A stretch of DNA of 64,000 bases from an uncultured Spirochaetales bacterium (GTDB taxonomy: Bacteria; Spirochaetota; Spirochaetia; Sphaerochaetales; Sphaerochaetaceae): positions 1 through 64,000 of the forward strand of contig CASFDA010000029.1 of the NCBI GenBank assembly GCA_949293335.1, read 5' to 3'. Each line of letters begins with the position of its first letter. Position 1 is the first letter of the stretch. This document shows, in pieces, positions 2,239-30,799 of this stretch. Under the pieces are notes generated by a model that did not search any database, was not told the origin of the DNA, and saw only the letters and a list, made by a program, of their open reading frames with translations. The translations under genes and the position numbers were made by a program.

Positions 2239-3525
2239 TTACCCTGCGTATCCAGCAAGACGCGGAAGCCAAAGTAAAACATCAGGGAAAACAGCAAACA
2301 ACAATGTTCCCGCAAAAAGTGCAGCAGTGAAAGGAAGTGCATTTTTAGCAACGTCCTCAACACTTGTCTTTGCAAGTCCAGCTGCAACAAAAAGACATGT
2401 TCCGACAGGGGGAGTAAGTACTCCAAATGAAAGTGACATACAGATAATAAGCCCAAAGTGAAGTGGATCTATTCCAAGCATCTCAGAAGCAGGAAGAAGT
2501 ACTGGACCAAGAATAATAAGTGCTGAAAGTGTATCTATGAAAGTTCCAACAATGAGCATCAGAAGAACAACTCCAATCATGAATTTTGTAGGAGTATCAA
2601 GAACCGTCAGTACGACAGAAGCAACTTTTGCAGGTATGTTTTCAAATGCCATTATCCATCCAAATAACGAGGCAATAGCCATCACAAGCATAACAAACCC
2701 TGTTGTCCTTGCTGTCTCTAGAAGTACAGAAGGCAAGGTTTTTAGAGTAAGCTCTCTATAACAAAAAGAGACTATAAGGGCATACATACATCCAACAGCT
2801 CCCGCCTCGGTTGGAGTCATTATCCCCAAAAGAACACCGCCCATAATAATAAATGGTGTAAGTAGAGATGGAACTGCATCAATAAATGACTTAAGTGTTT
2901 CCTTTGCAGGAACTTTTTCACCTATGGGAATATTCAATCGTTTTGCTTGAAGATAAAGAAGAACAAACAAACAACCTGCAAAAATAAAACCAGGAACATA
3001 ACCTCCAATAAAAAGAGAACCGATTGAGATGCTCGTCAGTCCCCCGTAAACAACGAATGGAATGCTTGGTGGGATAACTGCTCCCAGAGAGGACGATGAT
3101 GCCTCAATTGCCCCTGCAAGCCCCGAAGGATACCTATTTTTCTTCATTAAAGGAATTGTAATCGAACCGGTTGCTGCTACGTTTGCAACCGAAGATCCAG
3201 AAAGAGAAGCGAATATCACACTCGAAAAGAGCGCTATCATTCCTATTCCACCTCTTTTATGGCCAATAACATTTCTCACAAACGTCACAAGGCGTTTTGA
3301 AATTCCTCCAGCCTCCATTATCGCACCTACAAGAATGAAGAATGGTATTGCTGTCAAGGAGAAAGAATTCATTCCTCCATATATCTGCTGTGCTATCGTT
3401 GACCACGGAATATCAGGCATAAACATCAAAATATACACGAGGGACGAAAGTCCCAGTGAAAAAGCAATAGGAACTCCAATTATTAGAAAGAACCCAAATG
3501 TACCTAGTAGAATTACTGTTGCCAT
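2239..3525 (-). CDS. dctM: TRAP transporter large permease (DctM family)
   Basis: The large membrane subunit of a TRAP transporter couples substrate uptake to the sodium gradient with an elevator mechanism. The 428 residues form about 11-12 hydrophobic segments with typical DctM signatures: GGISKRLV after the first helices, SGSSVANVAATGSITIP, PPSIPFVVYG and LTPPVGTCLFVAAGLA. Length is normal. It follows dctQ with a single-base gap and has its own AAAGGAGG site inside the dctQ tail, so the two subunits are translationally coupled. It works with dctQ and dctP upstream and is followed by rpiB. Confidence 0.95.
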   Translation of the reverse strand: MATVILLGTFGFFLIIGVPIAFSLGLSSLVYILMFMPDIPWSTIAQQIYGGMNSFSLTAIPFFILVGAIMEAGGISKRLVTFVRNVIGHKRGGIGMIALFSSVIFASLSGSSVANVAATGSITIPLMKKNRYPSGLAGAIEASSSSLGAVIPPSIPFVVYGGLTSISIGSLFIGGYVPGFIFAGCLFVLLYLQAKRLNIPIGEKVPAKETLKSFIDAVPSLLTPFIIMGGVLLGIMTPTEAGAVGCMYALIVSFCYRELTLKTLPSVLLETARTTGFVMLVMAIASLFGWIMAFENIPAKVASVVLTVLDTPTKFMIGVVLLMLIVGTFIDTLSALIILGPVLLPASEMLGIDPLHFGLIICMSLSFGVLTPPVGTCLFVAAGLAKTSVEDVAKNALPFTAALFAGTLLFAVFPDVLLWLPRLAGYAG

Positions 3526-14133: not shown

Positions 14134-16134
14134 ATGTCTACATTCATCGATATGTTTGCAGGTGCAGGTGGTTTTAGCGAAGGTTTTCTGCAGGCTGAGT
14201 ATAAAGGAAACTATTTTGACTTTTTACTTGCGAGCGATATCAATCCAACATGTGAAGTAACCCACTACATAAGATATAATCTCCAACTAGGACTGAATAC
14301 TGCTTTTTTGACCAAAGACATAAGCGATCCCGATTTCATCGAAGTTCTTTTAGCCACGATAAAACATAAGTTCGGAAATAAAGAGATTGATGTCCTAACA
14401 GGAGGCCCTCCGTGTCAATCATTTAGTCTGGCTGGTGAAAGAAGAAAGAATGATAAGAAAGACGATTTATTTTCCTATTATCTCAAAGTCATAGGGACAC
14501 TCAAACCCAAGTACTTTATCATGGAAAATGTCGCAGGAATACTGACAAAAGACAATGGCCGAATAAAAGAGCGCATATTGCGAGAGATCCGCAATATCGT
14601 GGATTATTCTGCATTAGATCGATTTATCAAATCAGTAGAGAAAGGAATGGATATTAATCACTCATCCATTACAGAACTTAACCTGTGCATCAAGATACTG
14701 AAAATCTGGCAGGAAAATAATCGCCTCATTGAAGAAAGGAGGAATGATTATCTATCGATACTAGAGAATCTAGATGCTGAAAACCTGTCAACAACACAAA
14801 AATCCTTTCTTGAAGCCTCATTATTTGAAAACAAAAACACTATTGCCAATTCCATATTGGAGGAACTTTGTGCATCTCTTTCATCCCAACTCGTGGATGC
14901 TTTCAGAAATGACAAACAGACAACAGAAGATGAGAGAAATGTCATTCGCCAAGCTGTATCTTTGATTAGTAAAACAACTCTACTGAATAAACTTCAACAT
15001 GAAATTAAAAAGCAGATTAATACAGCCCAATTAAAAAGAAGCATATACAAAACCCAATTTGACCAGATTACCGATTGGCTTAATCTGGAAAGCATCATTG
15101 ACATTGCTAAAACGCAGTGTGACAAAATAATCTCAAATAGCACAAATTCAAAAGCCAAAGCTGTTTTGTCTTATATAAAACTGGCTCTTGAAATAATACC
15201 AGAAGGGCCATATGCCACTGTGCAAAGAGTAAAAGATCTTATAACAGAAAATGATATTGAATATCCCAATCTTGAATCTGATCTGAAAGCAATATCGCTA
15301 TACAAGATTGCTAAACCGATGATTCTGCATGCTTCTGATTACGGAGTACCCCAGAACAGAGTTCGTGTCGTTTTCATCGGCTGCAGAAATGATCAGAATC
15401 TCATAACGAGCATACCTCCTACGGTAACATCCTCAGAAAAGGTAACAATCGAAGAGGCAATTGGAGATCTTAATTATATAGAAATCGGGAGCCATCCTCT
15501 AAATTATGATTCTGCTTTCTATGCCAAATTCAAAAAAACAAAGAAATGGAACATCATGAGATATCAAGATGGCTCCTTATCTGCAGATAAGGAAAGCAAG
15601 ACATACATTGAATGGAGTCGCCAAGGTCGATTGAATCCAGAGAGATTCCCGAATCTTAAAAAAGAGGATCCTTCATATTCAAAAGCAAATTCTATGGCTG
15701 AATTTAAAGAAAATGATATTTTAAGAGCAAAACTTCAGAATCATGAAACATCAAATCACAACGAACTAGTGCAGAAACGTTATGAAATAATGAGGAAATA
15801 TGGAGGCTATCAGGAAGCTAAAGAAGCAGAACCAGACAATCCTCTGATGGAAACTAAAAAGAGGAACTATACTGTATTGAATCCAAATGATCAGGCTCCA
15901 ACCATTACGACGATGCCTGACGATTTTGTTCACTATGCTGCAAATCGTTCCCTTACAGTTAGAGAAATGGCTAGATTGCAGTCATTTGATGACAGTTTTG
16001 TATTCCAAGGAAAACGTGCAACAGGAGGAGACAAAAGAAAGGATGAGACTCCTCAATTCACTCAAGTTGGAAATGCCGTACCTCCTCTTATGGCGAGAGC
16101 AATTGCTATGGAAATTCTTAAGAACATTAAATAA
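14134..16134 (+). CDS. DNA (cytosine-5) methyltransferase of a type II restriction-modification system
   Basis: The enzyme methylates C5 of cytosine in a specific DNA site to protect it from the convergent nuclease. The 666-residue protein shows motif I (IDMFAGAGGFSEGF), motif IV with the catalytic Cys94 (GGPPCQSFSLAG), motif VI (MENVAGIL), motif VIII (VPQNRVRVVFIG, near residue 405) and motifs IX-X (LTVREMARLQSF and QVGNAVPPLMARAIA). Between motifs VI and VIII there is an unusual insertion of about 240 mainly helical residues, which explains the large size (typical m5C enzymes are 330-450). AAAGGAG lies upstream of the ATG. The gene is AT-rich, and its stop lies one base from the stop of the opposing nuclease gene. 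Confidence 0.93.
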   Translation: MSTFIDMFAGAGGFSEGFLQAEYKGNYFDFLLASDINPTCEVTHYIRYNLQLGLNTAFLTKDISDPDFIEVLLATIKHKFGNKEIDVLTGGPPCQSFSLAGERRKNDKKDDLFSYYLKVIGTLKPKYFIMENVAGILTKDNGRIKERILREIRNIVDYSALDRFIKSVEKGMDINHSSITELNLCIKILKIWQENNRLIEERRNDYLSILENLDAENLSTTQKSFLEASLFENKNTIANSILEELCASLSSQLVDAFRNDKQTTEDERNVIRQAVSLISKTTLLNKLQHEIKKQINTAQLKRSIYKTQFDQITDWLNLESIIDIAKTQCDKIISNSTNSKAKAVLSYIKLALEIIPEGPYATVQRVKDLITENDIEYPNLESDLKAISLYKIAKPMILHASDYGVPQNRVRVVFIGCRNDQNLITSIPPTVTSSEKVTIEEAIGDLNYIEIGSHPLNYDSAFYAKFKKTKKWNIMRYQDGSLSADKESKTYIEWSRQGRLNPERFPNLKKEDPSYSKANSMAEFKENDILRAKLQNHETSNHNELVQKRYEIMRKYGGYQEAKEAEPDNPLMETKKRNYTVLNPNDQAPTITTMPDDFVHYAANRSLTVREMARLQSFDDSFVFQGKRATGGDKRKDETPQFTQVGNAVPPLMARAIAMEILKNIK

Positions 16135-16135
16135 C

Positions 16136-17347
16136 TTATAAAATATATACCTGAGGAGAGCCTAACAGTAACGGCAAATCCTCAGGAAACATTTTGAACA
16201 GCATCCCATGATCTCTCCATTTTCCAGTCTCAGGATTTATGTGAGCAGCTAAATCAACAGTAATCTTTCCTTCTTCTAGTAGAGGAACAAACAAAGAGAC
16301 ATTCGGTTCCTTGGTGTGCAGAATCTTATTGTATTGGAAATATTCTCCATCCATGCGTTTAATCGAAGCTGCCTCTACCCAGAAAGTCTCATGATGTTTC
16401 AGAAGTAAAGCATCCTTCAAGTTCGTGAGCATCCACCCAGAAACATATTTAGAAACATTAACCTCCGAATAGATAAGCTGAAGCCTATCCTGTTCCTCCT
16501 GAACCGAAAGCTGAAGATTATATGCATTAGGTCTCGAAATCCTGCATGTTTCATATAGTTGTAGACGAGGCGTATCTGAATCGCGTGGTATCTGGATTTT
16601 TCCATATGTTTCTACTATTTCACGATACTTTAACCCCTCATCCGGTACCCGAGCAAATAATGTTTCCCGAGTTTGAGTTCTCTTATGTCCTCCTTTTGTT
16701 GTCCTAGTCGTCTTTAATTCAATTCCCTTATAATCCGGATTCTTAGAATTATTTCTTTTAATGCCTAATGCATTCTCCAATGTATCACCTACACCAGGAT
16801 CTCCTGGCGTTATTGATTTCAGATAACCTTTATCATGAATTTTCTGAATCTTATCGAGAAGTTCTTTAGCAATAGCATTCTTGACATATCTGGCTTCACT
16901 GATAATCTCTCTCGCAATTCCGTTGATATCAAGAACCGACTCACTGATTGCAGGATCTGATAAGTTGAAAACATAGATTCCATCTTTAATAACAATCAGT
17001 GCAAGTAAATTATAAGGATGGCAATATTTCTTCAGATCTCTAAACCAAATCCTTGGATCACCGTTTTTTGTAACTGGTCGATATAATGAAGCACTCGTTT
17101 TTATTCTTCCGGCACGTGTAACAAAATACGCGGGAACAACAACCTTATTTTCAGGTCCTTGCTTCTGCGCCTGATAGTTATGTACTTTCTCAGTTTGCAG
17201 CAATTCACGAACTGGAGCAGTTGCATCCATTATTGATTTTGCATACCCAGTTTCAGTAGGAACTAAAAATGCAACATTTACTCCTGTATTAGCAAAAACA
17301 GGGAAATACTGTTCTATCGGCGTATCTGATTTACTAAGCAAAACCAA
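16136..17347 (-). CDS. restriction endonuclease, MvaI/BcnI-like fold
   Basis: Residues about 181-215 match the MvaI/BcnI catalytic region: GDPGVGDTLENALGI, then NPDYKGIELKTTR, with D205, E210 and K212 placed as in the metal-dependent PD-(D/E)xK site of monomeric nickases/nucleases of this family. MvaI cuts CCWGG and BcnI CCSGG, so a related CCNGG-type target is possible but unproven. The N-terminal 180 residues carry no domain I recognise. At 403 residues it is larger than MvaI or BcnI (roughly 240-250). It faces the m5C methyltransferase tail to tail, a common R-M layout. Both genes look intact, so the system may be active. Confidence 0.8.
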   Translation of the reverse strand: MVLLSKSDTPIEQYFPVFANTGVNVAFLVPTETGYAKSIMDATAPVRELLQTEKVHNYQAQKQGPENKVVVPAYFVTRAGRIKTSASLYRPVTKNGDPRIWFRDLKKYCHPYNLLALIVIKDGIYVFNLSDPAISESVLDINGIAREIISEARYVKNAIAKELLDKIQKIHDKGYLKSITPGDPGVGDTLENALGIKRNNSKNPDYKGIELKTTRTTKGGHKRTQTRETLFARVPDEGLKYREIVETYGKIQIPRDSDTPRLQLYETCRISRPNAYNLQLSVQEEQDRLQLIYSEVNVSKYVSGWMLTNLKDALLLKHHETFWVEAASIKRMDGEYFQYNKILHTKEPNVSLFVPLLEEGKITVDLAAHINPETGKWRDHGMLFKMFPEDLPLLLGSPQVYIL

Positions 17348-17620
17348 CCTCCAGTTTCTAGTATAAAGCTTATCTTAGTATTCATCACGGTCACTCTGCA
17401 TTACATTTTGCTACTTTCCGTTACATCACCCCATGAAAACAAATAGGTTTGACACCGTAGCAAAACAGGTGTGAAAATCAGGTTGAGAAGGAAAGATCCG
17501 GATCATGAAGGCACAACGAAGCGGAGGTTGGGCAGGATAGCTTTTTTTGAATCACTGGACGCAACCCCTGTCTGAGAAGGTCAAGAACAAGGCAGGGCAA
17601 TGGCGGAACAGGTAGTTTTG
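17348..17620. other. short intergenic stretch with repeated TTTTGCTAC motifs
   Basis: No intact gene is seen. TTTTGCTACTT occurs at 17406-17416 and again at 17616-17626, and the inverse GTAGCAAAAC at 17457-17466 forms a perfect 10-bp inverted repeat with 17615-17624. These may be terminal repeats of an IS or a short non-autonomous element next to the IS30 remnant. Confidence 0.35.
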
Positions 17621-18088
17621 CTACTTCGCGAGTAGCTCTGGCCTGAGGATCACCTCTGTGGGATCGATCCTCCTTATGTTGAGTTTGTCAAGTATGTTTC
17701 TTCCATACAGGAACTCGAACATGTCATATGGAGACTTGCCACCCAATTCGGCACGTAAATATGAGTTGATGTGGCTCATCATGAGGTCGATGTCCTCCTG
17801 GGTATAGGGGTTCAGCGACCTTCCTTTTGGGATGATGCGGCGGATGAATTCATGGTTGTTCTCACATGCACCTTTCTGTTGACTCATGTTCAGATCGCAG
17901 TAGAAGATCCGTGTACAGATCTCACCTGTAGCCTTATCCGCCTCAATCGGGAGAGGATCAGAGAATTCAGATCCGTTGTCTGTCAGGAGGACAGGAAAGA
18001 TCCTTGAGAAGTCCTCCCGTCCGAGCTTGAGCTTCAGTTGGTCGAAGATCCCGATGACCGATGATGACGTATTGCGGTCACGGATAAA
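17621..18088 (-). pseudogene. IS30-family transposase C-terminal fragment
   Basis: The minus-strand frame reads TSSSVIGIFDQLKLKLG, then VLLTDNGSEFSDPLPIE with the second DDE aspartate, and QQKGACENNHEFIRRIIPKG with the glutamate, ending with the usual MFEFLYG ... RPELLAK tail. The N-terminal DNA-binding part and first catalytic Asp are missing: upstream of about 18088 the sequence switches to an unrelated plus-strand coding remnant. The element therefore appears truncated where it joins the BREX remnant. Confidence 0.8.
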
Positions 18089-18247
18089 ACACATCCAGAA
18101 GCAACTGTAGAAAAGCTTCAGTCGGAATTGTCTGTAACGGACAGGACAATCTACAGGGACATCGAATGGCTGAAAGAAAATGGCTATCTGGAACATATTG
18201 GATCAAAGAAATCTGGATCCTGGCATGTAACCAAGGAGCTTGAATAG
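18089..18247 (+). pseudogene. C-terminal winged-helix fragment of an AlbA_2/AAA_4-type protein
   Basis: The plus frame 18089-18247 reads ATVEKLQSELSVTDRTIYRD, IEWLKENGYLEHIGSKKSG and SWHVTKELE-stop, a winged-helix tail as found at the end of AlbA_2 (AAA_4) putative DNA-binding proteins. Genes of this type are found inside type 1 BREX loci near pglX and pglZ, and here the fragment stops 1 nt before the ATG of the pglZ remnant, which supports that origin. Its body was lost at the junction with the IS30 fragment. Confidence 0.55.
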
Positions 18248-18248
18248 G

Positions 18249-20070
18249 ATGAATGATAAAGAAGGACAGATAAGGAATCTATCCTGCTCTCAGAGCTGGA
18301 TCTGCCACACTCCTTTATCGGAGTTCTCAGAAAGCATCTTCCTTTCTTCAAGAACAAGAGACTGGTAAAGAAGCTGGGGACATTGGTAAGTGCAGACATG
18401 AGCGGGATGGCTTTGAACATCTTATTCTCGCAATCACAGCAGGAGAAGATTCATTCAATCTCCAGATGGTCATTGATGCGCTTGTCGCTGACTGGGCCGA
18501 GAGCGGGAAGCTTTATGAGACAATGAAGGAATATGGCCTCACTCCTCTCTTATGGAATGACATTGCATCACTCTATGGATATTCGAAGGAAGAACCCAGC
18601 ATTGAGGACTTCTATCTTTCAGTGTTTGAGACCTCACTTCAGCATTTTCTTGGTGCAGAGACAGCACTTCAGGCAGATGCCTATGGCCTCCTGAAGCATT
18701 GGAAGGATTCCGGGAAGTTCAAGGAATCTGGCCTTTACAGAACCCTCTCAGAAAAGGCAGCAGAAGAGCTTTCCACCCCTAAACATGGCTGACCTTCCTA
18801 TTGAGTCACTTGCCTCCTTTGATGACTACTCGTTCATCGAAGAGGAAATCATCGCAAGACTGACATCCAGCGTCCTCAACCAGACGATGAGTCTTGAACC
18901 GATCAGGCAGATTGCAGAAAGAAGGAGAAGCTCTTTATGGTACGGTGAATACAGTTCTGCCTATCAGAGCATTGTCCTTGCGAAAACGATGCTGAACGCA
19001 GTGCAGAACATTTCTTTCTCAATGGATACTCCGGATGCCGGAATAAGCAAATATGTCAAGGAGTGGTCACATATAGACAATGCGTACAGGAACTTCAAGA
19101 CACAAGTCAGAAGCTGTCTGAACATCAATCATGATATGGAATCTCTCAATGATAAAGTCGAGTCTGTCTATGTGAACAGCTTCCTCATCCCTCTTGGAGA
19201 AAAGTGGACACTGCTTGCTGGAAAGATGCTTGAGAAAGGCTGGGAAGCAGAAGGGTGCATCCAGAGGCAGAGCATCTTTTACCATTACAACATCAAGAAC
19301 CTCCAGATGAGAGGGAACAAATCAATAGTTCTGATATCTGATGCGATGCGTTATGAAATCGGAGAAGAGCTTGTAAGCGAGATGAACTCACAGCAGAGAT
19401 ACAAGGCAACAATACAGCCGATGCTGGCATCTGCTCCTACTTACACACAGCTTGGAATGGCAGCCCTTCTTCCGCATGAGACACTTGTAGTCTCACCGGA
19501 TGGAAGCGCTGTCTATGCAGATGGCGCAAGCACTCAGGGAATCGTAAACAGAGAAAAGATCCTGAAGAATGCAGCAGAAGGGAAAGCCACAGCATTGGAC
19601 TCGGATGATGTTCTCAGGATGAAGAGCGATGACCTGAGGACAATCATCAGGGAAAACTCAGTAATCTATGTCTACCATGACCTTATTGACCGTGAGGGAG
19701 AAGACAATCTCTTCAAGGCATCTCACGATGCCATTACAGAGCTGAAGGAGATCATCAGGAAACTTGGATCTTCGAATGCGAACACAATATATGTCACAAC
19801 AGATCATGGTTTCCTTTTCCAGGAGAGCAAACTAGAGTCTCATCAGTACTTTTCTGACGGCACGGTAAGAGGAAAGGGTGTTCATCAGGTAAGCGGAAGA
19901 CGATGTGCAATAGGCTACGACCTTGAATCGTCAGATTCCCTCATGATTGCAAAGCTGAAGGACATCGAACTTTCAAACGAAGATGATCTTGAAGTCGCTT
20001 TCTCCAACTCAATACTCAGAATGAGGGGGAAAGGGGTAAACACGAACTTCGAATCTCCGAAGTTTCATTG
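18249..20070 (+). pseudogene. pglZ: BREX pglZ remnant (alkaline-phosphatase-fold), multiply broken
   Basis: PglZ is the alkaline-phosphatase-superfamily component of BREX anti-phage systems. The remnant starts MNDKEGQIRN, then loses the beginning of the protein. Pieces in three frames follow: LLSELDLPHSFIGVLRKHLP (about 18280-18400), then FEHLILAITAGEDSFNLQMV to 18790, then the frame from 18785 with the phosphatase-core motifs VLISDAMRYEIGEEL and YVTTDHGFLF. The C-terminus breaks at about 20065-20070 after NSILRMRGKG, short of the usual ending. At least two frameshifts plus loss at both ends make it non-functional. No brxA, brxB, brxC, pglX or brxL is in the window. Its GC is closer to the host than that of the neighbouring defence genes. 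Confidence 0.82.
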
Positions 20071-20292
20071 TTTAAGTCTTTCAATCCTACGTACTATAGC
20101 AACCTTTGCCAGATCATTTTTAAGCTTTCTCATCTATTATCAGTTTGAAAGACCTCTCTTATGTCTGCATACCACTCATAGTTCACAGCCAGCCTGTACG
20201 GCCTCATTCACTGTGGTTAGGCCAAAGAATCATCTATGTTTTTTGCGAAGGGGATTAGCAAAAAGCTGAGTAATTTAAAAGTATTTTCTTTT
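20071..20292. other. junction sequence between the pglZ remnant and the DUF2806 gene
   Basis: Homology to PglZ stops near 20070. The following 200 bases hold no recognisable gene on either strand; the plus-strand frame stays open by chance to 20269. It is probably rearranged or mobile DNA. Confidence 0.4.
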
Positions 20293-21261
20293 TTACCTCT
20301 GCAACATATCGAGAGTATTGTAGTTAATTTGTCCATCAGAATCAACAAAATTTATGCTATGCGCCGTAACGTTAGTTTTCTTATATTTACTTCTTATATG
20401 CTCCAAACAATCCAATATGTATGTCTTGTTCTGCTCAGGCTGAATAGCATCAAGCAGTTGATATCCAGCCTCTGTGAAAATATATACAGGCAAAGATATT
20501 TTATCAACTTTAGGTGCTGTACCTGCGATTATCCCCAAAATATGCGGATTCCATACAATCTCCGTTTTTTCATTGGAAATAGAAAGGTTTAGACTCAGAC
20601 TCTGAGATGACATTATTCCACACTCCTCCAACTTTATAATGTGTGAAAAATAAATACCATATTTATTCATTAGCGAATCATCTTTCAAAAGAAATTTGAG
20701 ATATCCATGAGTTAAAGATAGTGCGGCTACCTTCTGAAATAGTTGTGCCTCTTCTTTAGTTATATTTCGTAATTTCTCCAAGGTCCGATAGGAGTACCTA
20801 CTTGGGGACTGAATTTCTCCAGCTAAAATACGCCCCCATATTTTTTGCATATCTTCATTACTGATATTTTCCACTGCGTTGAAAAAGCGAAACATCCAAT
20901 CTGGATCAACAGGGTCGCTACTCACGGAATCAGCTCCCTGAAGTTCTTGATATGCATTATCCGCTACTGCCTCAATGTTTTGCTGCTTTGTGATTTCTTG
21001 ATATGCCAATCGGCTACTTGCTCTTTTTGCTATTTCTTCAAAATCACTGGTGTCAATCGAAACACCTGTAGAATCATACACAATCGGAACATCGCAATTA
21101 TTTCGTACTGCATCGGATATAATTTTTAACTCATAAGCTTTTGCATCGGCCATTTTTCTAATATGCCGAGGTTCATAAGCCTTGCCAATAGCTCCAGAAA
21201 CCGCCTCAATTAGTTTTTCGGCTGGAGATACTAATGCTTGAATAACTTCTGATTTACTCAT
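20293..21261 (-). CDS. DUF2806 domain protein
   Basis: The protein (322 residues from the chosen ATG) matches the DUF2806 pattern: PVDPDWMFRFFNAVENISNE, DMQKIWGRILAGEI and YRTLEKLRNITKEEAQLFQK in the middle, with a C-terminal part near SLPVYIFTEAGYQLL. The function of the family is unknown; members occur sporadically, often on mobile or defence-rich DNA. A TTG 12 nt upstream could also start it, but ATG 21261 is preferred because GGATGG precedes it. It stands alone between IS and BREX debris and appears intact. Confidence 0.8.
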   Translation of the reverse strand: MSKSEVIQALVSPAEKLIEAVSGAIGKAYEPRHIRKMADAKAYELKIISDAVRNNCDVPIVYDSTGVSIDTSDFEEIAKRASSRLAYQEITKQQNIEAVADNAYQELQGADSVSSDPVDPDWMFRFFNAVENISNEDMQKIWGRILAGEIQSPSRYSYRTLEKLRNITKEEAQLFQKVAALSLTHGYLKFLLKDDSLMNKYGIYFSHIIKLEECGIMSSQSLSLNLSISNEKTEIVWNPHILGIIAGTAPKVDKISLPVYIFTEAGYQLLDAIQPEQNKTYILDCLEHIRSKYKKTNVTAHSINFVDSDGQINYNTLDMLQR

Positions 21262-21524
21262 TTTTCCATCCAATTAGTCCTAGAATTAAATTCCACAAAT
21301 TTCTCCAAAGCAATACTACCTTCTTTAAAACATAACTCTTGGGTAAACTCGTGGACAAATCGGTTTACTACTTTCTATATGAGACATCGAATTCCTCCAC
21401 ATAATTTTCTAACATCTTATCCATGAAGTAAATCAGCTTTATGTAGAATTCTTCATCAACGGTCAATTTCATCTAAAAATTCTTACCCGCCAATTTGGAG
21501 TGACCCCTTAAAGTTGGACATATA
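21262..21524. other. intergenic region ending at an IS3 terminus
   Basis: No gene is seen. Just before the IS3 OrfB remnant the sequence AGTGACCCCTTAAAGTTGGAC (21500-21520 region) looks like the terminal inverted repeat of an IS3/IS150-group element. The promoter for the DUF2806 gene must lie in 21262-21500. Confidence 0.4.
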
Positions 21525-22136
21525 TCAAGAAATCATTTTAAAGGCAAGTTTCCTGTATTGTAAAGGTGACATTCCTTTGAGTTTCACCTGTATTCTTCTC
21601 TTGTTGCACCAACTTATGTACTCGTCTATTGCTAAATACAAATCCTCTGTTTTCCTGTATTCCTTCTACCTGCCGAACCATATCGCCTTTTTCAAAGTCG
21701 AAAAGAATGTCTCCATCTTGCTGTTGTCCAAGCAGTTTCCCTTCCTTGACATGCTCTGTATTATGCAGTGATCGTCAAGCCTTCTGACCCATGAGGGATG
21801 CTGGTACTGGTATCCCTGGGCCAAATGCATTATGAGTCCGGCAAGACAGCGGTTCTTGTCGAACGCCTTGTCGAGCATGTCCATCACGAGTTTCATTCCT
21901 GGTGATGTCGAGTACGAATAGCTTATGATGGAACCGTCGCAGAAATCCTTTATCGGAGACAGATATACCTTTGTCGAATCAGCCAGCCTGAATTCGGTAA
22001 CATCCGTTGCCCATACAGTGTTCGGTCTTTCCGCATCGAACTTCCTTCTCAGTATGTTGTCAGCGATCCTGCCGACTTTGCCCTTGTATGAGCTGTACCT
22101 TCTGTAGCCATTTCTGGCAATCATTATTATTCCCAC
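21525..22136 (-). pseudogene. IS3-family OrfB transposase remnant, frameshifted and lacking a catalytic Asp
   Basis: The frame contains the rve integrase core: IARNGYRRYSSYKGKVGRIA, NTVWATDVTEFRL (first Asp), then LIMHLAQGYQYQHPSWVRRL and NCLDNSKMETFFSTLK (Glu). At the second catalytic position the usual HSDQGWQYQ has become HLAQGYQYQ, so the aspartate is replaced by alanine. Near 21667 the frame shifts and the normal tail (YLAIDEYISWCNKRRIQVKL, then GMSPLQYRKLAF) continues to a stop at 21525. The N-terminal HTH region is missing. The element is dead in at least three ways. Confidence 0.85.
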
Positions 22137-22223
22137 TCTATTGTTGCAGGTGGTTTTTAGGTTACATCATATTCTCAGGAATCGCAAGGAATACTCGATA
22201 CTGACAATCACATCGGAGGAATA

Positions 22224-23246
22224 ATGAGAAAAATAACAGTTCTGCTTATCGCAATGCTTATGACGACAGCGGTTTACGCTTCAGTATTCACAAATTCTCT
22301 TGGACGCAGCGCTGAGCTGCCTGACAAAATAGAGAGAATCGTACCATCAGGCAATCTTTCCCAGATGGTACTCTACTCCGCAGCACCAGAGATGATGACT
22401 GGCTGGTCGCAGAGATTATCCGGAAGCGCTGAGAAGTACTTCCAGCAGGATACTGTGAATCTTCCTGTATTCGGCACATTCTATGGAAGAAAAGCAAATC
22501 TCAACAAAGAAGCTCTGATGGCCGCTGATCCTGATGTCGTTATAGACAGGGGAGAGATAAAGGGAAATCCTGAATCGATGATGCAGGATCTTGACTCGCT
22601 CTCTGAGGATATCATGATACCGGTGATCTTCATCGAGGCATATCTTGAGAATACGCCTGAGGTATATAGGACACTTGGTGAGCTTCTTGGAAAGGAAGAT
22701 ACGACAGAACTGCTTGCTGTTTTCGCTGAGGATATACTCCAGATGGCAGAGTATGCAAGGAAGGAAATAAAGGATCCAGTAAGCGTATACTACTCATCAT
22801 CACCTGATGGTCTTGAGGCAATTCCTGAAGGAAGCTTTCATGGCGAGGTGATTGAGATAGTAGGTGCAGAGAATGCAGTACCGGCATCCTTCATCACTGA
22901 TAAAAACACGATATCCATGGAAGAACTGTACATACTGAATCCTGATGTAATTCTTCTTGGTAATGAGGATGCATACAAGGAAGTGATGAATAGCAGTCTC
23001 TGGAAGAACCTTGACGCGGTGAAGAACGGAAAAGTATATCTTGTTCCTTCTGAGCCATATTCCTTCATAGACAATCCACCAGCAACAAATAGGCTCATAG
23101 GTATATACTGGCTCGGCAATCTTCTCTATCCTGAGCTCTACCCTGTGGATATCATAGAAAAGACCCAGAAATACTACAGCCTATTCTACAGATATGATCT
23201 CAGCCGTGAGCAAGCTGAATCGATACTGAGATATGACAATCTTTGA
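22224..23246 (+). CDS. ABC transporter periplasmic binding protein (Fe-siderophore/cobalamin type)
   Basis: This 340-residue protein belongs to the BtuF/FepB-like binding-protein class that delivers siderophores, heme or cobalamin to an importer. It has a signal peptide (MRKITVLLIAMLMTTAVYA, no lipobox cysteine) and the helical-backbone two-lobe layout: ERIVPSGNLSQMVLYS at the start, ADPDVVIDRGEI, the central GEVIEIVGAENAVP and NPDVILLGNEDAY. GGAGGAATA precedes the ATG. No permease or ATPase gene follows; the next gene is on the opposite strand. The rest of the transporter is elsewhere or was lost when the adjacent IS3 element inserted. Confidence 0.88.
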   Translation: MRKITVLLIAMLMTTAVYASVFTNSLGRSAELPDKIERIVPSGNLSQMVLYSAAPEMMTGWSQRLSGSAEKYFQQDTVNLPVFGTFYGRKANLNKEALMAADPDVVIDRGEIKGNPESMMQDLDSLSEDIMIPVIFIEAYLENTPEVYRTLGELLGKEDTTELLAVFAEDILQMAEYARKEIKDPVSVYYSSSPDGLEAIPEGSFHGEVIEIVGAENAVPASFITDKNTISMEELYILNPDVILLGNEDAYKEVMNSSLWKNLDAVKNGKVYLVPSEPYSFIDNPPATNRLIGIYWLGNLLYPELYPVDIIEKTQKYYSLFYRYDLSREQAESILRYDNL

Positions 23247-23315
23247 GATATTGATATGTATATCAAGCAAACGACAGGCACTGCCTGCCACAAAAAATAC
23301 ATAAATTCAATACAG

Positions 23316-24821
23316 CTACTTCCCTAGAATTCTGAACCATTCAAACTCATCGAGGCCAATCCTAGATAAGGATTCTGCATATTTTCTGACAATCCTGAGG
23401 GAATGCATCTCATTAACCCTTCCACAATATCTATATTGCTTTTGTTCTTTGTCTAAATAAATCCACTCATTATTAATATACTTGGACTCAACAACATGTT
23501 TGTCAGTAGAAAATATAATAGTATGCATGTCAAATGATTTACTTTTAACTTCAAAAGCTATATCTGTGCCAAGGATTATAGATATATTTTGCTTTTTAGA
23601 AGTAATATTTATGTTCTTTTTAAAAAGAGGCAGAAATAGAAACTTTCTTTCACCATCCGTTATTCTTAAAGAATCACAACGTTGTTGTATGCACAAGAAA
23701 AATAAATCGTTTGATTTATCTTGAATAATAGTTCCTAACGTAAGAATGTGAGGTTTATTATCATTAATAGAAAAATCCACACACAAATGTGATAATCTAG
23801 CAAATTTAACAAAAGATTCAAACATTTTAGATTCATCATCTAGCAAATTGTGAACAACTGGATGTTTTTTGCAGGCAGAATCTACTTTTTCCTTATGTTC
23901 TTCTGTGGATGAAAAAGGCTCTATCCCTAAGAGACGTTTTATATCTTTTTTTTCATCACAACCATCATTTATTTTTTTGATATAAAAATTCATCCATCTT
24001 TTTTCAAATAATAAAAAATCATTACTTTGTGACACAAGTAATTCATACAACACATTGCTGTATAAGTTAAACAAAATATCCAATGAGCTATCTGCATCCA
24101 TAATACAAGATTTATGATCTAAATATGCATAATCTATATCTTCTGAAAATTGATTTAGGATTTCAAAAATATTCTCTTTTATCAATGTTGAACACTTTAA
24201 TGCAAATTCTGGTAAGAAACCATGATTCATATTTTCAAATTCCTTCATAAGGAAAACTGGTACTTTGTCTACTGGAAGTAATCCTTTAGACAATTTACCA
24301 TCAATTTTTGTATCAATGTCTTTTTTACGAAAATATATTCTTACAGAATGAAATTTTAAAAGATATTCTTCTTTAATATTTTCTGTTTCTATTCCGTTTT
24401 CCTGTAATTTCTGTTTAGCCTCATTAAAGACACTTTCAACACTTTCATTTGTATAAATAAGAAATAACTTCAATTGATTTTTACACACTTCAAGTACCGA
24501 ATACAAAAATTTTATCGCAAATTTTCCGCGTATATCAGATTCGACATCTGCTGTAGGGTCAATATTGTCTGGCAATGGAAAATCAATAAGCCAATCAAGA
24601 ACGGTTATATCAGCATTCTTTGCCAATCTAATACAAATATCGACATCTTCCATACGCTTTGGTGCATAAAGAGTACATAATTTACCATTCTTAGCAAATT
24701 CTTCAGTAAATTTATTAAAATCAAAATTCTTAATCTTGTTTTTTTTCTCATTATATTTATCGGCTTCATCGTCAATAAATAATATTGTACTCAAAAATTC
24801 ATCTGCTGGATTACTACTCAT
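23316..24821 (-). CDS. receiver-domain protein with unknown C-terminal region (third gene of the methyltransferase/kinase cassette)
   Basis: Residues about 10-170 form a response-regulator receiver domain with all key positions kept: acidic pair D17-D18 in ILFIDDEA, phospho-acceptor D76 in ADITVLDWLIDF, the conserved Thr124 in LFLIYTNES, and a lysine near 166 in IYFRKKD. The remaining 330 residues match no domain I recognise; no HTH or nuclease motif is visible, so it is not an ordinary transcription regulator. The ATG at 24821 is preferred for ribosome-site spacing (GGGAG). Its start overlaps the end of the kinase gene, so the two are co-translated. Likely the phospho-acceptor partner and possibly the effector of the cassette. 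AT-rich. Confidence 0.75.
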   Translation of the reverse strand: MSSNPADEFLSTILFIDDEADKYNEKKNKIKNFDFNKFTEEFAKNGKLCTLYAPKRMEDVDICIRLAKNADITVLDWLIDFPLPDNIDPTADVESDIRGKFAIKFLYSVLEVCKNQLKLFLIYTNESVESVFNEAKQKLQENGIETENIKEEYLLKFHSVRIYFRKKDIDTKIDGKLSKGLLPVDKVPVFLMKEFENMNHGFLPEFALKCSTLIKENIFEILNQFSEDIDYAYLDHKSCIMDADSSLDILFNLYSNVLYELLVSQSNDFLLFEKRWMNFYIKKINDGCDEKKDIKRLLGIEPFSSTEEHKEKVDSACKKHPVVHNLLDDESKMFESFVKFARLSHLCVDFSINDNKPHILTLGTIIQDKSNDLFFLCIQQRCDSLRITDGERKFLFLPLFKKNINITSKKQNISIILGTDIAFEVKSKSFDMHTIIFSTDKHVVESKYINNEWIYLDKEQKQYRYCGRVNEMHSLRIVRKYAESLSRIGLDEFEWFRILGK

Positions 24822-27801
24822 TATTATCATCTCCCTTTCTCTTTGAAATTTTGAAAGTAACCGTCATATTTGGTTGAGGATTGTCCAAAACAAGATCATA
24901 AGCATCTGCTTCAAGAACCTCTCTACTTATACTTAAACCCATACCACGTCCATTCGGTTTTCTTGAAAACATCATTTCAAAAATCCGTTCCTTATCTTGG
25001 ATTTTTACAGGTGCTCCATTATTTGAAATATATATTCCATTTTCATCGGCATGAAGTCGGATTATTTTATTTTCCACATTGCTGTTACTTAACCAATAAA
25101 TGGCATTATCAACAATATTTACAAAAACTGGATAAAAAGTTGATCGAAAACCGTATATGCTACCCCTCTCAAAACCAGCAGTATGTTTAAGACTGACATT
25201 ATGTCTTCCCATGCGTGCCTTAAAAAGATCAATAAGAAACAAATTGATATCTTTTAGCGGAATATCTTCTCTTCTACGGTTTAATCGTTTTGACATAGGA
25301 GTTAATAAAGAAAGATAGCCGTCAAGATGATCAAAATTAATTTTGAGATTTGTATATATACCTTCAATTTTTGACTCTATATCAGCCCATCCTTTCAAAT
25401 CTTTTAAACCCTGCTTTATAGAATTTGAAATTGCATAGAATTCATGGTTTAGTATACCAACAGCAAGACCAAGTTGACTGAGTTCTACATCAGATAGAAG
25501 TCTGGATTTCATGTCATCAAGTTCTGCTGACATTGCATCAGAAATTTGAGCACTAGTAATATATTCACCATCAATATTTCGTTCAATATAAAAGCTCTCA
25601 AATTGCCGTATTATATTTTCCATAACTTCTTTATTCTTACTACTTACAGCATTAATTTCAGCTTCAAGGCGGTTCCTTTCTTTTACAAGATCAAAAGTAC
25701 CTGAGGAAACAGATGGAATCCGTACAAATTGTTCTTTTACCTGTCTAATCTGCTGATCTAGATTCTGAATCAACTCTGATGTAACTTCCCTAACTTTTGC
25801 AGATGTCTGTCTAACTATATCATCAGCATCGCTTTTGAGTTTTTTATTAGATTTAAGAGCCTCCAAGGAAATCTGATTAACGGCGGTCTCTAGCCTTTTC
25901 TTTTTATCAATGCTGAAATTACGTTGTTCCATCAGACGCGAAATTTTTTCAGTAATTTCAGTACGGGCCTTATCAAAAAGATTCGTGTTCAATGATTGCA
26001 TTTCATCTTGATAAATATCATAATCCTGAAGCATAGCTTTTGTAAGGGCAAATCCACGTGGAGGCTGTACCTCTATAGATTTTTTATATTCCTGAAGTAC
26101 TCTGTTTGTATCACTCTCCAATACAATCAACTTTTCTCCTGCTTCGTCTTCATTTTCGAGGTTACAGACAACCTGTAAATCCTGCTCAAATCTGTTAAGA
26201 ATAGTCCTCACATAAGAATGAAATTCTTTTTTTGAAAGACGAGCAAAGAAAAGATCTAAAGCCTTCGAAAAACTATCCTTTCTTGCTCTTGCTTGTTTCT
26301 CTCTTCGTTCAAGTGCTGCATGCAGTTTATTGATTTCTGTTTTCTTTTGCTGATAAAAATCCGAATAAGGAGAATCGTCAGCATAATTAAAGAAATCAGC
26401 AGCAAGCTGAACAAAGAAATTTTTTAATATCGCCTGAAGCTGCTTATATGCCTTATTTTCAATAAACCCCTCTCTACCTGCTTTTTCAATGAGATTTCGA
26501 TTTTGATTATTATCTATCTCTATAGCCCCAAACATTCTTCTATATGAGAAGAAATATGTAGAGGCTCTCTTGGACCTATTCTTCTCTATGTCCAAGAAAT
26601 CATAATCGGAATCGCCATATGGCAATATTCGAATGTTGTTTCTATATATGTACAAACCTCCATATAAGTCACCTTTTGCTTTGATTCTTGCATAATCTAT
26701 TGGATCTACCCGAGAACTTTTTTGTTCTCCCTGAAGATATGCAATATTGATGCGAAATGGACCACATTCAGTAGGCTTATTTCGATTTCCATTCCAAGGT
26801 ATTATATGGTCGTATGTTTTTTCCCCGTATATTCTGATTGTACCATGGAATTGTCCATATAAGTCAAACTCACCTGAAAAATGGTGATCTGCCATATTGA
26901 AATCTTCAACTGTGAAAAAACTATCCTCTTGAATGATTGATATGAATGAATTTAAATCATGGCCACGGAAATCTCTGAATGCAATATTGATATCGGGATC
27001 AGGATGGCCAGGAATCATTGTATTATGGAAACCGGCAAGCATTTTTTCAAGTCGACTTGCCTCATCTGAATTTTTATCTCGTTCTGTATCTATATAAAGA
27101 GTTTCTGAAACTGGAGAAATAAAAAACCATGTTCCACCAGAAGAAGTATCCATAGAGAAATTTCCCGGGAGAGAAGCGGTAAGCTTCTTTGGATCAATAT
27201 CAAAACTTTTAACCTTAGTAATAAGTTCCTGAGAAACATCTTTTCCTACTTTTACATCATTCAACAATGTTTCTATTGCATTCATGCTTATATTACATAA
27301 TTTACTTATTTCTGATGCAGTAGGAACATGGTCATATTCTTCTATAGGAATTACAATATCTTCAAGATTTATAAATGGAAATTCAAAAATATTCCAGTTT
27401 ATAAAACAAGCCACAATTTTTGATTCTTTTAGTAATTTAGATTTTGTAAGGATGAGAACTTGATCCCCTATTGAGGCAATTGCAAGCCGACCAATTCCTT
27501 TAGATCCCATTATTTTTCGAGGCGACTTTGAAGGATCGCAAGGTATCCTATCTAAGTTTTCAGTAGTTTTACTCTCCGTACCGAGAGTCAACCACCGATT
27601 TTCAAAATCTTCACGGGTCATTCCTATACCATCATCTTGAATTATCAAAAGGTTTTTTTCGCGGATGAGGTTTGCAGAAAAATTATCTGCATATGCATCA
27701 TGTGCATTTTTAATAAGCTCATTTAATGCAGTAGGAATACTTGCAATCTGTTGTCTGCCCAACAAATCAAGGGCACGCGCACGTGTTTTAAATTTAGCCA
27801 T
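24814..27801 (-). CDS. dual GHKL protein: MORC/MutL-like ATPase plus C-terminal histidine kinase
   Basis: The 995-residue protein has two different GHKL modules. N-terminal residues 1-110 resemble MORC/MutL/Hsp90 ATPases: ELIKNAHDAYAD (catalytic Glu28, Asn32), IIQDDGIGM and MGSKGIGRLAI. Residues about 500-760 are long charged helices, probably coiled coil. The C-terminus is a histidine-kinase core: GILNHEFYAIS with His786 and the following Glu as in HisKA H-boxes, VNIVDNAIYWL (N box), IFEMMFSRKPN (F box) and GRGMGLSISREVL (G2). No membrane segment or signal peptide is present, so it acts in the cytoplasm, probably sensing DNA or its modification state. It overlaps the methyltransferase gene by 8 nt and the receiver gene at its end. 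This layout recalls prokaryotic MORC/MutL-like ATPases in R-M neighbourhoods. Confidence 0.85.
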   Translation of the reverse strand: MAKFKTRARALDLLGRQQIASIPTALNELIKNAHDAYADNFSANLIREKNLLIIQDDGIGMTREDFENRWLTLGTESKTTENLDRIPCDPSKSPRKIMGSKGIGRLAIASIGDQVLILTKSKLLKESKIVACFINWNIFEFPFINLEDIVIPIEEYDHVPTASEISKLCNISMNAIETLLNDVKVGKDVSQELITKVKSFDIDPKKLTASLPGNFSMDTSSGGTWFFISPVSETLYIDTERDKNSDEASRLEKMLAGFHNTMIPGHPDPDINIAFRDFRGHDLNSFISIIQEDSFFTVEDFNMADHHFSGEFDLYGQFHGTIRIYGEKTYDHIIPWNGNRNKPTECGPFRINIAYLQGEQKSSRVDPIDYARIKAKGDLYGGLYIYRNNIRILPYGDSDYDFLDIEKNRSKRASTYFFSYRRMFGAIEIDNNQNRNLIEKAGREGFIENKAYKQLQAILKNFFVQLAADFFNYADDSPYSDFYQQKKTEINKLHAALERREKQARARKDSFSKALDLFFARLSKKEFHSYVRTILNRFEQDLQVVCNLENEDEAGEKLIVLESDTNRVLQEYKKSIEVQPPRGFALTKAMLQDYDIYQDEMQSLNTNLFDKARTEITEKISRLMEQRNFSIDKKKRLETAVNQISLEALKSNKKLKSDADDIVRQTSAKVREVTSELIQNLDQQIRQVKEQFVRIPSVSSGTFDLVKERNRLEAEINAVSSKNKEVMENIIRQFESFYIERNIDGEYITSAQISDAMSAELDDMKSRLLSDVELSQLGLAVGILNHEFYAISNSIKQGLKDLKGWADIESKIEGIYTNLKINFDHLDGYLSLLTPMSKRLNRRREDIPLKDINLFLIDLFKARMGRHNVSLKHTAGFERGSIYGFRSTFYPVFVNIVDNAIYWLSNSNVENKIIRLHADENGIYISNNGAPVKIQDKERIFEMMFSRKPNGRGMGLSISREVLEADAYDLVLDNPQPNMTVTFKISKRKGDDNNE

Positions 27802-28834
27802 TTATATTTCCCAATAATGATAACCCTACTCGCCTTGCAAATTCACAAGGAACAGCATTTCCTATAAGCTTTGCTGCTTTGCCCATTGAAGAAGTCCTAA
27901 ACTCATATGTTTTAGGAAACGTCTGCAACGTAGCCCCTTCCCGTATTGAAAGTCCTCTATTTTCTTCTGGATGGGCAAACCTTCCATTTGATATACTATA
28001 AAATTTAGTCGTAATTGTAGGAGCTGGTTTGTTCCACCACATTCGAGCAAATGTATCTCGAAAGCAATTGTCTTTTCCTTCAAAACATTTCAACTGTAAT
28101 TCTGGAATATTTGCCCAGTCAAAACGTGTTCCACCATCAGAATGTGTTTTTTCAAGCCGTCTGAGACAAACAGGACTAAGGCCAGCACAAGAATGATTGA
28201 AAGGAGAATTATCCCTGTTTCCCGCAGGTATTCTTGGAAATCCATTTTTCTCTCCAATAAAATCTGCAACTACAGGAATTTCATTGCTTTCTGCTGGAAA
28301 AGTAAGATTAATATCAAGCCTAGTTGCAATCAAAGAAAATCGTTTACGTGATTGAGGAACACCATATTTACTCATATCCACAACTGCAGAAACGATTTTC
28401 TTATATCCGCAATTATTTATTTTTTCTAAAAAAGATGGAAGAACACTTACTTTATTTGAAAGAATACCAGGAACATTCTCTACAAGAATATATGCGGGTT
28501 TGAAATACTCAACGAATTGAGCAAATCTTGATAATAAATCTTTTGTTTTTATTGATTTCTTCCTATCCGTATTTATTATGCTGTAAAATTGACAAGGACT
28601 ACACCCGACAAAAATCATTTCATCATCATTTTTTTTGACATTGATTTTTTTTTCCAAATAATCAAATGATAATTTTTCAATGTCTGATTCAATAAAAATC
28701 GTTCCCGGATTGTTAAATTCATATGTATCTTTTGCATCATGGTCTATATCTATGCCTGCTATGACGTCAATACCTGCCATACGAAGACCATATGTCATAC
28801 CGCCGCCACCACAGAAAAAATCAATAGCTTTCAT
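27794..28834 (-). CDS. DNA (cytosine-5) methyltransferase of the GHKL/receiver cassette
   Basis: The 346-residue protein has the full m5C set at normal length: motif I IDFFCGGGGMTYGL, motif IV FVGCSPCQFYS with catalytic Cys81, motif VI LVENVPGIL, motif VIII VPQSRKRFSLIA, motif IX LSIREGATLQTF and motif X IGNAVPCEFARRV. The target-recognition region lies between about 200 and 280. It is the first gene of a three-gene operon and overlaps the dual-GHKL gene by 8 nt. No nuclease gene is adjacent, so the methyl mark may serve as a self-signal for the ATPase/kinase instead of simple restriction protection. This is inference. Low GC suggests acquisition. Confidence 0.93.
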   Translation of the reverse strand: MKAIDFFCGGGGMTYGLRMAGIDVIAGIDIDHDAKDTYEFNNPGTIFIESDIEKLSFDYLEKKINVKKNDDEMIFVGCSPCQFYSIINTDRKKSIKTKDLLSRFAQFVEYFKPAYILVENVPGILSNKVSVLPSFLEKINNCGYKKIVSAVVDMSKYGVPQSRKRFSLIATRLDINLTFPAESNEIPVVADFIGEKNGFPRIPAGNRDNSPFNHSCAGLSPVCLRRLEKTHSDGGTRFDWANIPELQLKCFEGKDNCFRDTFARMWWNKPAPTITTKFYSISNGRFAHPEENRGLSIREGATLQTFPKTYEFRTSSMGKAAKLIGNAVPCEFARRVGLSLLGNING

Positions 28835-29248
28835 AATGGTAACTGCAACTCCTATCCATTATAGATTATGGAATACAAAGAAATTGAAGTCAATGAATCG
28901 CATTGACTCAAAATAATCTACGCGTTACTTGCAGAAGTAAATGCAAGTTTGAAGAAGTGGTTGCCTGTATTTATATCTGCAAAGAAGCAGGGATGGATCA
29001 AGGTCGCAAAGAGAATTGATCATGGATACAGGGATGAACTATTTCTTCTCATTGATTCAGTTCATCTCCATCCCTTCTGTCAGATCTCAATCCCACAGAA
29101 AAACGTGAAGAGCCTTTAAAGATTCTGGCGTGGAAGGAATTTGAAAGGAAAAATCTGAAATAATAGCTATATTTGACACAAAATAAGAGAATCGTCATAA
29201 AACAATTCCTTGCAGTATAACGATTCTCGTAATAGCGATAAAATCTAG
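28835..29248. other. intergenic region between the cassette and guaA, with an unrecognised remnant
   Basis: The promoter of the three-gene cassette should lie at the left end. A plus-strand frame open from 28907 to 29119 reads YALLAEVNASLKKWLPVFIS, then KVAKRIDHGYRDELFLLIDS; it has no good start and matches no family I know, so it may be debris of a truncated gene. The guaA terminator lies at the right end. Confidence 0.4.
29187..29228 (-). terminator. likely terminator of the guaA transcription unit
   Basis: GAGAATCGT (29187-29195) is a perfect 9-bp inverted repeat of ACGATTCTC (29220-29228), with a 24-nt loop. On the minus strand it starts about 20 nt past the guaA stop and is followed by TTATTTTG. 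The loop is longer than usual for an intrinsic terminator. Confidence 0.5.
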
Positions 29249-30799
29249 TCACTCCCACTCGATAGTTCCTGGTGGTTTACTTGTTATGTCATAGAGTACT
29301 CTATTTACTCCAGGGACTTCATTACATATCCTAGATGCAGCTCTCTGCAGGACATCATACGGCATTCTATACCAGTCAGCAGTCATCGCGTCCTCGCTTG
29401 TAACTGCGCGAAGGGTACAGACTTCACGATAAGTCCTCTCATCGCCCTGAACCCCTACACTCTTTACCGGCAACAGATCAGCAAGGGCCTGCCAGATTTT
29501 GCCATATAGCCCAGCTTTCCTGATCTCTTCGATAAAGATTGCATCGATGTCTCTTAGCGTATCCAGTCTTTCCTTGGTCACTTCACCAATACATCTGACA
29601 CCAAGGCCAGGACCTGGGAACGGATGACGATAAGTAAGTTCATCAGGTAAACCAAGTTCCTTGCCCAGTGCACGAACTTCATCCTTAAAGAGATCCTTGA
29701 GTGGTTCCAGAAGCTCCCATTTCAGATCAGAGGGAAGGCCACCAACATTGTGATGACTCTTGATCGTACTCGAAGGTCCGCCGGAAGGACTTCTGGATTC
29801 GATCACATCCGGATAGAGTGTTCCCTGCGCAAGAAATGAAATATCGTTACATTTTCTTGCTTCTTTATAGAACGTCTCAACAAAAAGCTTTCCGATGATC
29901 TTTCGCTTTGACTCTGGATCACTCACCCCCTTCAACGCAGATAGGAATACCTCCTCTGCATCTGCATACTGGAGTTTCATATTGAAGTGCTTGCCGAAAA
30001 GGTTGACAACGCTCTCAGCTTCATTCTTCCTTAAAAGGCCATTATTGACGAACACGCACACAAGTTGATCACCAACAGCTTTATGGATAAGTAGTGCTGC
30101 AACAGAAGAATCAACACCGCCAGAAAGGCCTAGAAGAACATTCTTATTGCCTACCTTCTCCCTGATGCTTTCCACCGAGTCATTGATGAAAGATCCCATG
30201 TTCCAGTCATTTCGTGCCCCACAGACTTTGAGAACAAAGTTCTCTATCATCTTCGTGCCCTCAACCGAATGGACTACCTCCGGATGGAACTGGATGCCAA
30301 AGAACTTTCTCCTGACGTCTTCCACACCTGTATAAGGGCAATTATCGGTAGAGGCAATGCATTCAAACCCAGGAGCAAGAGAGACAACGGAATCTCCGTG
30401 ACTCATCCACACCTGACTATGCCTATTCACTCCATCAAACAGGATGGATGGCTTGTCGACAGAGATGTTTGCAATCCCATATTCCTTCTTCTCAGGGCAT
30501 TCCACTTTACCGCCCAGCATGAGGGACATGACCTGCAGTCCATAGCATATGCCAAGAATGGGGAGACCAAGAGAGAAGATCTTCTCATCAGGACGAGGAG
30601 AACCTGGAGTGTTCACAGATGACGGACCACCTGAAAATATGATCCCCCTTGCCCCGCTATTCCTGATCTCTTCCGCACTGATAGTGAAAGGAACAATCTC
30701 AGAGTAGACGTCACATTCGCGTACGCGTCGGGCTATGAGCTGGCTATACTGTGCCCCGAAATCAAGGACAAGTATTGTGTCGTGTTTGCTGTTCGCCAC
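29249..30799 (-). CDS. guaA: GMP synthase (glutamine-hydrolysing)
   Basis: GuaA converts XMP to GMP using ATP and glutamine, the last step of guanine nucleotide synthesis. Residues 1-195 are the class I glutamine amidotransferase domain (ILGICYGLQ with the nucleophile Cys and GIQFHPEVVHS with the catalytic His). Then comes the ATP-pyrophosphatase P-loop LLGLSGGVDSSVAALL and a C-terminal dimerisation domain ending NRVLYDITSKPPGTIEWE, the normal GuaA ending. The 516-residue length is standard. It starts with GTG, 5 nt after GGAGGTG. It lies downstream of the ECF transporter genes on the same strand. Confidence 0.98.
   Translation of the reverse strand: MANSKHDTILVLDFGAQYSQLIARRVRECDVYSEIVPFTISAEEIRNSGARGIIFSGGPSSVNTPGSPRPDEKIFSLGLPILGICYGLQVMSLMLGGKVECPEKKEYGIANISVDKPSILFDGVNRHSQVWMSHGDSVVSLAPGFECIASTDNCPYTGVEDVRRKFFGIQFHPEVVHSVEGTKMIENFVLKVCGARNDWNMGSFINDSVESIREKVGNKNVLLGLSGGVDSSVAALLIHKAVGDQLVCVFVNNGLLRKNEAESVVNLFGKHFNMKLQYADAEEVFLSALKGVSDPESKRKIIGKLFVETFYKEARKCNDISFLAQGTLYPDVIESRSPSGGPSSTIKSHHNVGGLPSDLKWELLEPLKDLFKDEVRALGKELGLPDELTYRHPFPGPGLGVRCIGEVTKERLDTLRDIDAIFIEEIRKAGLYGKIWQALADLLPVKSVGVQGDERTYREVCTLRAVTSEDAMTADWYRMPYDVLQRAASRICNEVPGVNRVLYDITSKPPGTIEWE

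Follow-up and report, generated by a model that had tools for sequence, protein, structure and literature searches.

In Salmonella laboratory strains, the StySA BREX system is a type 1 BREX that was disabled through pglZ, with the whole operon present and pglZ and brxC mutated (excerpts of PMC9009780). An early-stop pglZ allele with intact BrxC gave no modification in that system, except when brxB was replaced. A BREX-linked Schlafen RNase with a minimal histidine kinase and a wHTH is described in excerpts of PMC12839542. In addition, GIsul2 integrates at the 3' end of guaA, in which GAGTGGGA lies, and islands of this type carry a duplicated guaA 3' tail with the GAGTGGGA core (excerpts of PMC9376610).

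The locus reported here lies in a stretch of 64,000 nucleotides (the window). As in StySA, BREX-1 was disabled through pglZ, but nearly all of the operon is gone. The SLFN_AlbA_2/HATPase_c_4/winged-helix architecture of the Schlafen RNase recurs in two related genomes (G023 and G044), where the gene is located inside the operon; of two copies in the window, one is reduced to its tail and the other to its start. As in GIsul2-type islands, a guaA 3' tail with its core is duplicated, but no integrase gene was found beside the block in the window, and the cargo is a dead BREX remnant and a DUF2806 gene. Overall, we consider with good confidence that the locus is a dead type 1 BREX remnant, probably put together by short-homology joins, which most likely moved between species as a passenger of a guaA island.

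Genomes and Reference Loci

The genome of the window (G000) is a draft that is 99% complete, and the comparison set comprised 48 genomes of the genus, each query being run against all of them. G022, a draft metagenome bin of an uncultured Spirochaetaceae, carries the same block on contig CALXOL010000002.1 (C2, locus L011). The intact BREX-1 reference loci were those of G023 and G044 (L013 for G044), and the PglZ reference from L012 was 837 aa long. L044 refers to contig C27 of G000, L046 to G008 and L049 to G012. The family TIGR02687 (BREX-1 PglZ type A) has a profile length of 844 and a cut-off of 270.35 bits. The features of the locus are as in Table 1.

Table 1. Positions of the annotated features in the window.
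Feature	Position	Strand	Evidence and remarks
IS30-family remnant, 3' transposase part	17442..18088	-	81% DNA identity to G046 and G020 copies; transpos_IS30 E 1.5e-12, below cut-off
Block shared with G022, 4,045 bases	18094..22138	.	Equals L011 9310-13354; 9 mismatches, no gaps
Schlafen/AlbA_2-HATPase-winged-helix gene, 3' end (copy 1)	18094..18247	+	HTH_11 E 1.7e-7; aligns to SLFN_AlbA_2 protein tails
Second AlbA_2 gene, first codons (copy 2)	18249..18274	+	Fused to pglZ at the shared AGGACAGATAAG
pglZ pseudogene	18263..20051	+	Residues ~95-691 of 837; TIGR02687, PF08665, PADLOC PglZ; alignment/tblastn to L012/L013
RelE/ParE-family (HI1419-type) toxin gene, 5' part, broken	20042..20138	-	79-87% DNA identity, 8 loci of the genus
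DUF2806/TIGR03899-type gene, intact, 326 aa	20293..21273	-	PF10987 E 4.1e-45; TIGR03899 E 5.3e-36, below cut-off
IS3-family remnant, 3' transposase part	21487..22138	-	transpos_IS3 179-327 of 369, E 1.8e-47; 84% to G014 over 21487-22117
Displaced guaA 3' tail copy, reads KPPATIEWE-stop	22127..22156	-	Its GAGTGGGA core contains the end of the shared block
guaA, own 3' end	29249..29278	-	Oriented like the displaced tail at 22127

Identity and Lesions of the pglZ Remnant

The profile search showed that window positions 18695-20266 matched TIGR02687 over profile positions 274-706 with 319.8 bits (E 3.2e-95), above the family cut-off, and that 18274-18789 (profile 114-270, E 6.4e-12) and 18260-18523 (profile 91-159, E 2.7e-4) covered preceding parts of the profile. 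The remnant scored 334.1 bits in the genus-wide search of 48 genomes. The Pfam PglZ domain (PF08665, E 5.5e-51) was covered from position 2 to 179 of 179, and PADLOC gave the same assignment. The alkaline-phosphatase-fold PglZ identity proposed in the earlier note was thereby confirmed, and a non-BREX phosphatase was ruled out by the best family match. This match and the intact operons of the relatives also bear out the assignment to type 1 BREX. Judged by sequence, the pseudogene is the middle part of a BREX-1 PglZ type A. It shares the sequence, the core domain and the place after a Schlafen/AlbA_2 gene with the copies of G023 and G044, but differs from this family in having two frameshifts, missing ends and no partner genes.

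In the alignment to the intact relatives the reading frame shifted twice, near 18405 and near 18786, and approximately the first 94 residues and everything past residue 691 of 837 were missing, so that the intact ORF of about 840 aa is not present and, judged by sequence, this copy cannot give a whole PglZ. A pglZ that is frameshifted and truncated at both ends had been described before, and this description stands. The fragments, however, occupy two frames and not three as had been counted, the third frame (codons from 18249) being the start of another AlbA_2 gene. The same codons had been read as about ten N-terminal codons of pglZ that precede a deletion. They are absent from intact pglZ and match the second AlbA_2 gene, so the view that pglZ simply lost an internal part of its start was rejected. 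Assembly error as the cause of the frameshifts, which the earlier note had wanted excluded, is ruled out to the extent that assembled sequence allows: the independently placed copy in G022 carries identical lesions. The genome search found no second PglZ in G000.

The dN/dS of the window copy against either intact pglZ was 0.08, and that between the two intact genes was 0.07; these low values indicate that pglZ was constrained for most of its history. The synonymous to nonsynonymous changes were 79:38 on the window lineage, whereas the lineages of the two intact genes had 40:10 and 46.5:11.5. This weakly suggests that the window lineage spent some time under relaxed constraint, the signal being weak because the window branch is longer and saturated. 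Within pglZ, three of the four differences between G000 and G022 alter the residue read. A frame of 494 aa (18785-20269) keeps the whole Pfam PglZ domain, and this together with the low dN/dS would fit a protein that is still expressed and functional alone. Such activity is nevertheless very improbable: no ribosome-binding site was visible by eye upstream of 18785, the BREX partner genes are absent from the genome, both the ratio of changes on the window lineage and the altered residues relative to G022 speak against it, and the early-stop pglZ allele of StySA did not support modification (excerpts of PMC9009780).

BREX Genes in the Genus

A contiguous and intact brxA-brxB-brxC-pglX-AlbA_2-pglZ-brxL operon was found in G023 and G044 (2 of the 48 genomes), which supplies the intact locus that the earlier note proposed to look for in related strains. 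Matches to brxA, brxB and brxC were confined to these two genomes. The Schlafen/AlbA_2 gene between pglX and pglZ is of full length in both and directly precedes pglZ, in agreement with the expectation of a winged-helix gene just before pglZ in type 1 BREX. A SAVED-domain gene (L013 13872-15206) lies directly behind the intact BREX of G044.

The search of G000 for the five other BREX-1 genes (brxA, brxB, brxC, pglX and brxL), which had been suggested as a check, found none of them in this 99% complete genome. A working type 1 BREX gene set is not present and the pglZ wreck alone remains. As there is neither a whole PglZ nor any of these five genes, G000 has no BREX defence at the sequence level, and the earlier proposal that the host lost BREX is upheld.

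Traces of PglZ occurred in six of the 48 genomes: intact in G023 and G044, and broken in G000, G022, G008 (fused to the brxL end) and G012 (truncated). PglX matches were found in nine genomes: two were of full length, one in G032 was marginal (37%, E 9.5e-4), and those in G005, G006, G008, G010, G022 and G036 were scraps of the C-terminus; G008 and G022 had both a pglX scrap and a broken pglZ. BrxL matches were found in four, two of them full, one a C-terminal end in G008 and one a 28% relative in G011. An AlbA_2 gene lay directly behind the pglX scrap in all six scrap-bearing genomes. It was open in G005, G008 and G010 (to contig end) and broken in G006, G022 and G036, and the open copies indicate that the Schlafen gene sometimes outlives the BREX operon. 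Full BREX-1 in two, broken pglZ in four and pglX-tail footprints in six of the 48 genomes thus form a natural series of BREX decay. A decayed BREX is of a known and ordinary kind; the unusual part is a near-unchanged dead module shared by distant species. Among the titles and abstract openings listed for BREX pseudogenes, remnants, frameshifts and decay, none mentioned a dead BREX block common to different species.

Joins at Both Ends of the Remnant

The winged-helix scrap upstream of pglZ was correctly taken as an AlbA_2-type tail in the earlier note, given its HTH_11 match and its alignment to SLFN_AlbA_2 proteins. Full-length homologues carry SLFN_AlbA_2, HATPase_c_4 and a winged helix, and the window keeps the winged-helix tail alone. 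In G022 the tail extends approximately 330 bases further to the left, and a whole Schlafen/AlbA_2 copy is present on contig C27 of G000. A literature search for AlbA with BREX returned nothing useful.

The start of the second AlbA_2 copy matches the start of the AlbA_2 follow-on gene in C27 (L044 1774) and in G008 (L046 7583). At the left join, the 12-base AGGACAGATAAG is common to the window, C27 and intact pglZ. At the right join, the partner of pglZ is the start of the toxin gene in antisense orientation, and the 10-base ACGAACTTCG is common to the window, intact pglZ (L012) and the toxin gene of G011. The intact toxin homologue of L066 matched TIGR02683 with E 7.4e-38. Shared stretches as long as 10-12 bases would hardly be expected by chance at either join (roughly estimated at ~1e-5 each), so the joins were likely made at short homology between parents of the kind seen in the relatives. 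By this route pglZ would have lost its left end to the AlbA_2 copy-2 start and its right end to the toxin start, and would have taken two frameshifts besides.

The outer ends had been ascribed to IS or to junctions of no known kind. This is right for the left outer cut, where the IS30 remnant cuts the Schlafen/AlbA_2 tail at the left edge of the scrap block, and wrong for the right cut of pglZ, which is the toxin gene. A right-hand truncation of pglZ by an IS was rejected accordingly; the IS3 remnant lies beyond the DUF2806 gene.

A Block Shared by Two Diverged Species

The block is 99.8% identical between G000 and G022, its nine differences are spread out and neither of its flanks is the same in the two genomes, whose guaA genes are 74% identical. 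Two deeply diverged species therefore share 4 kb at 99.8% within different surroundings. Common descent cannot explain this identity at such a guaA distance, since most of the 4 kb is dead DNA, and with the different flanks it indicates that the block moved recently with its lesions. As both species carry one and the same wreck, lesions included, at least one of them received pglZ dead. Plain local decay of an ancestral BREX, with the G022 block due to common descent or to an assembly or binning artefact, would fit the finding of BREX wrecks and pglX-tail footprints elsewhere in the genus, in several further genomes. An artefact of binning or assembly behind the shared block keeps some weight, given that the two genomes are drafts and that G022 was binned from a metagenome. 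This explanation is unlikely, however, in view of the gap between 74% and 99.8%, and the differing flanks and scattered differences are unlike a mis-binned duplicate.

The DUF2806 gene is the sole whole gene in the shared block. Its DNA was found over most of the gene in G000 and G022 only, and as stretches of ~30 bases elsewhere among the 48 genomes. The protein search gave kin in 309 plasmid records, 306 of them predicted conjugative, and in 2 phage records; coverage did not exceed 80% in any. Among the 20 matches listed, the plasmid kin reached at most ~67% coverage at ~33-35% identity. The block could have been kept and moved for this gene, as an unrecognised gene of defence or of a mobile element, with pglZ as ballast. 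This reading is compatible with passage on a guaA island and would fit the restriction of the gene to the two sharing genomes and its distant plasmid kin, but we regard it as possible and rather doubtful: the literature search found no functional data on DUF2806, PADLOC has no model for it, and the plasmid kin are of low coverage and identity.

No copy of the block was found in plasmids. Phage records gave one partial match, in an unannotated record, to block positions 3189-3402 (window ~21282-21495). Viral contigs had no match to the junction 27-mer and no DUF2806 kin. No RNA element was found within 17000-23000 and no tRNA in the whole window.

Duplicated guaA Tail and Probable Island Movement

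The guaA 3' end is present as a direct repeat on one strand, with a third tail on C27 of G000. The duplication was expected 0 times in 100 shuffles, the search pattern having been written from the two copies found. The shared block ends inside the GAGTGGGA core of the displaced tail. It most likely formed the end of a genomic island when it travelled, with the dead BREX remnant as a passenger. Turnover at a defence hotspot, as proposed in the earlier note, is supported and can be refined, as a guaA tail is duplicated at this site in the way that marks island integration. In the proposed sequence, pglZ would have died before the block travelled on a guaA-integrating island, integration at guaA would have occurred by site-specific recombination, and the IS30 element would later have cut the left end of the block in G000.

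In the window, no integrase or tyrosine recombinase gene was seen in the vicinity of the block, which speaks against island integration. The block of G022 joins an AT-rich arm followed by ORFs, the second of which has a weak integrase match (phrog_1, E 3.3e-8), and this would fit site-specific integration at guaA. A trio of tyrosine recombinases at L011 13584-19669 was rejected, as only this second ORF has such a match. Other observations speak against such integration: the G022 junction past the block has only 12 core bases, one of them mismatched, and no further guaA tail, and G022 has the block on contig C2 but guaA on C4. A 12-mer core with at most one mismatch is, moreover, expected 0.38 times per window by chance.

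We tentatively suggest that guaA-type islands may serve as scrap carriers in the genus, in which dead, short-homology-fused defence genes cross between deeply diverged species and the Schlafen gene outlives BREX. If so, a dead system in a genome need not mean that its lineage once had a working one. Counts of defence loss usually take a pseudogene as the mark of a system once active in the lineage, whereas at least one of the two species here received its wreck dead.

Two stretches of G022 (L011 1015-1166 and 6194-6313) match window positions 29115-29267 and 28995-29114, just beyond guaA. They lie 5 kb apart in G022 and are candidate island-end repeats. The stretch L011 6194-6313 is also found beside the broken pglZ of G012 (L049 6864-6985). 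An RVT_1 gene (L011 6710-8281, E 4.9e-8), possibly a defence RT, lies just left of the G022 wreck.

Neighbouring Genes

The two other methylation-linked systems noted earlier are both present in the window. One is a type II restriction-modification pair at 14134-17374, apparently whole, in which the genes of a C5 methyltransferase and an MvaI/BcnI-family endonuclease are convergent. Genes for Response_reg_2, HEF_HK/HATPase and a C5 methyltransferase are in a row at 23316-28834, flanked by guaA and its displaced tail, and resemble a conflict or restriction-like module. Finally, a substrate-binding-protein gene region between both guaA tails (22171-23289) is 93% identical to G011:C44, compared to 72% for guaA between G000 and G011, and was therefore probably also transferred recently.
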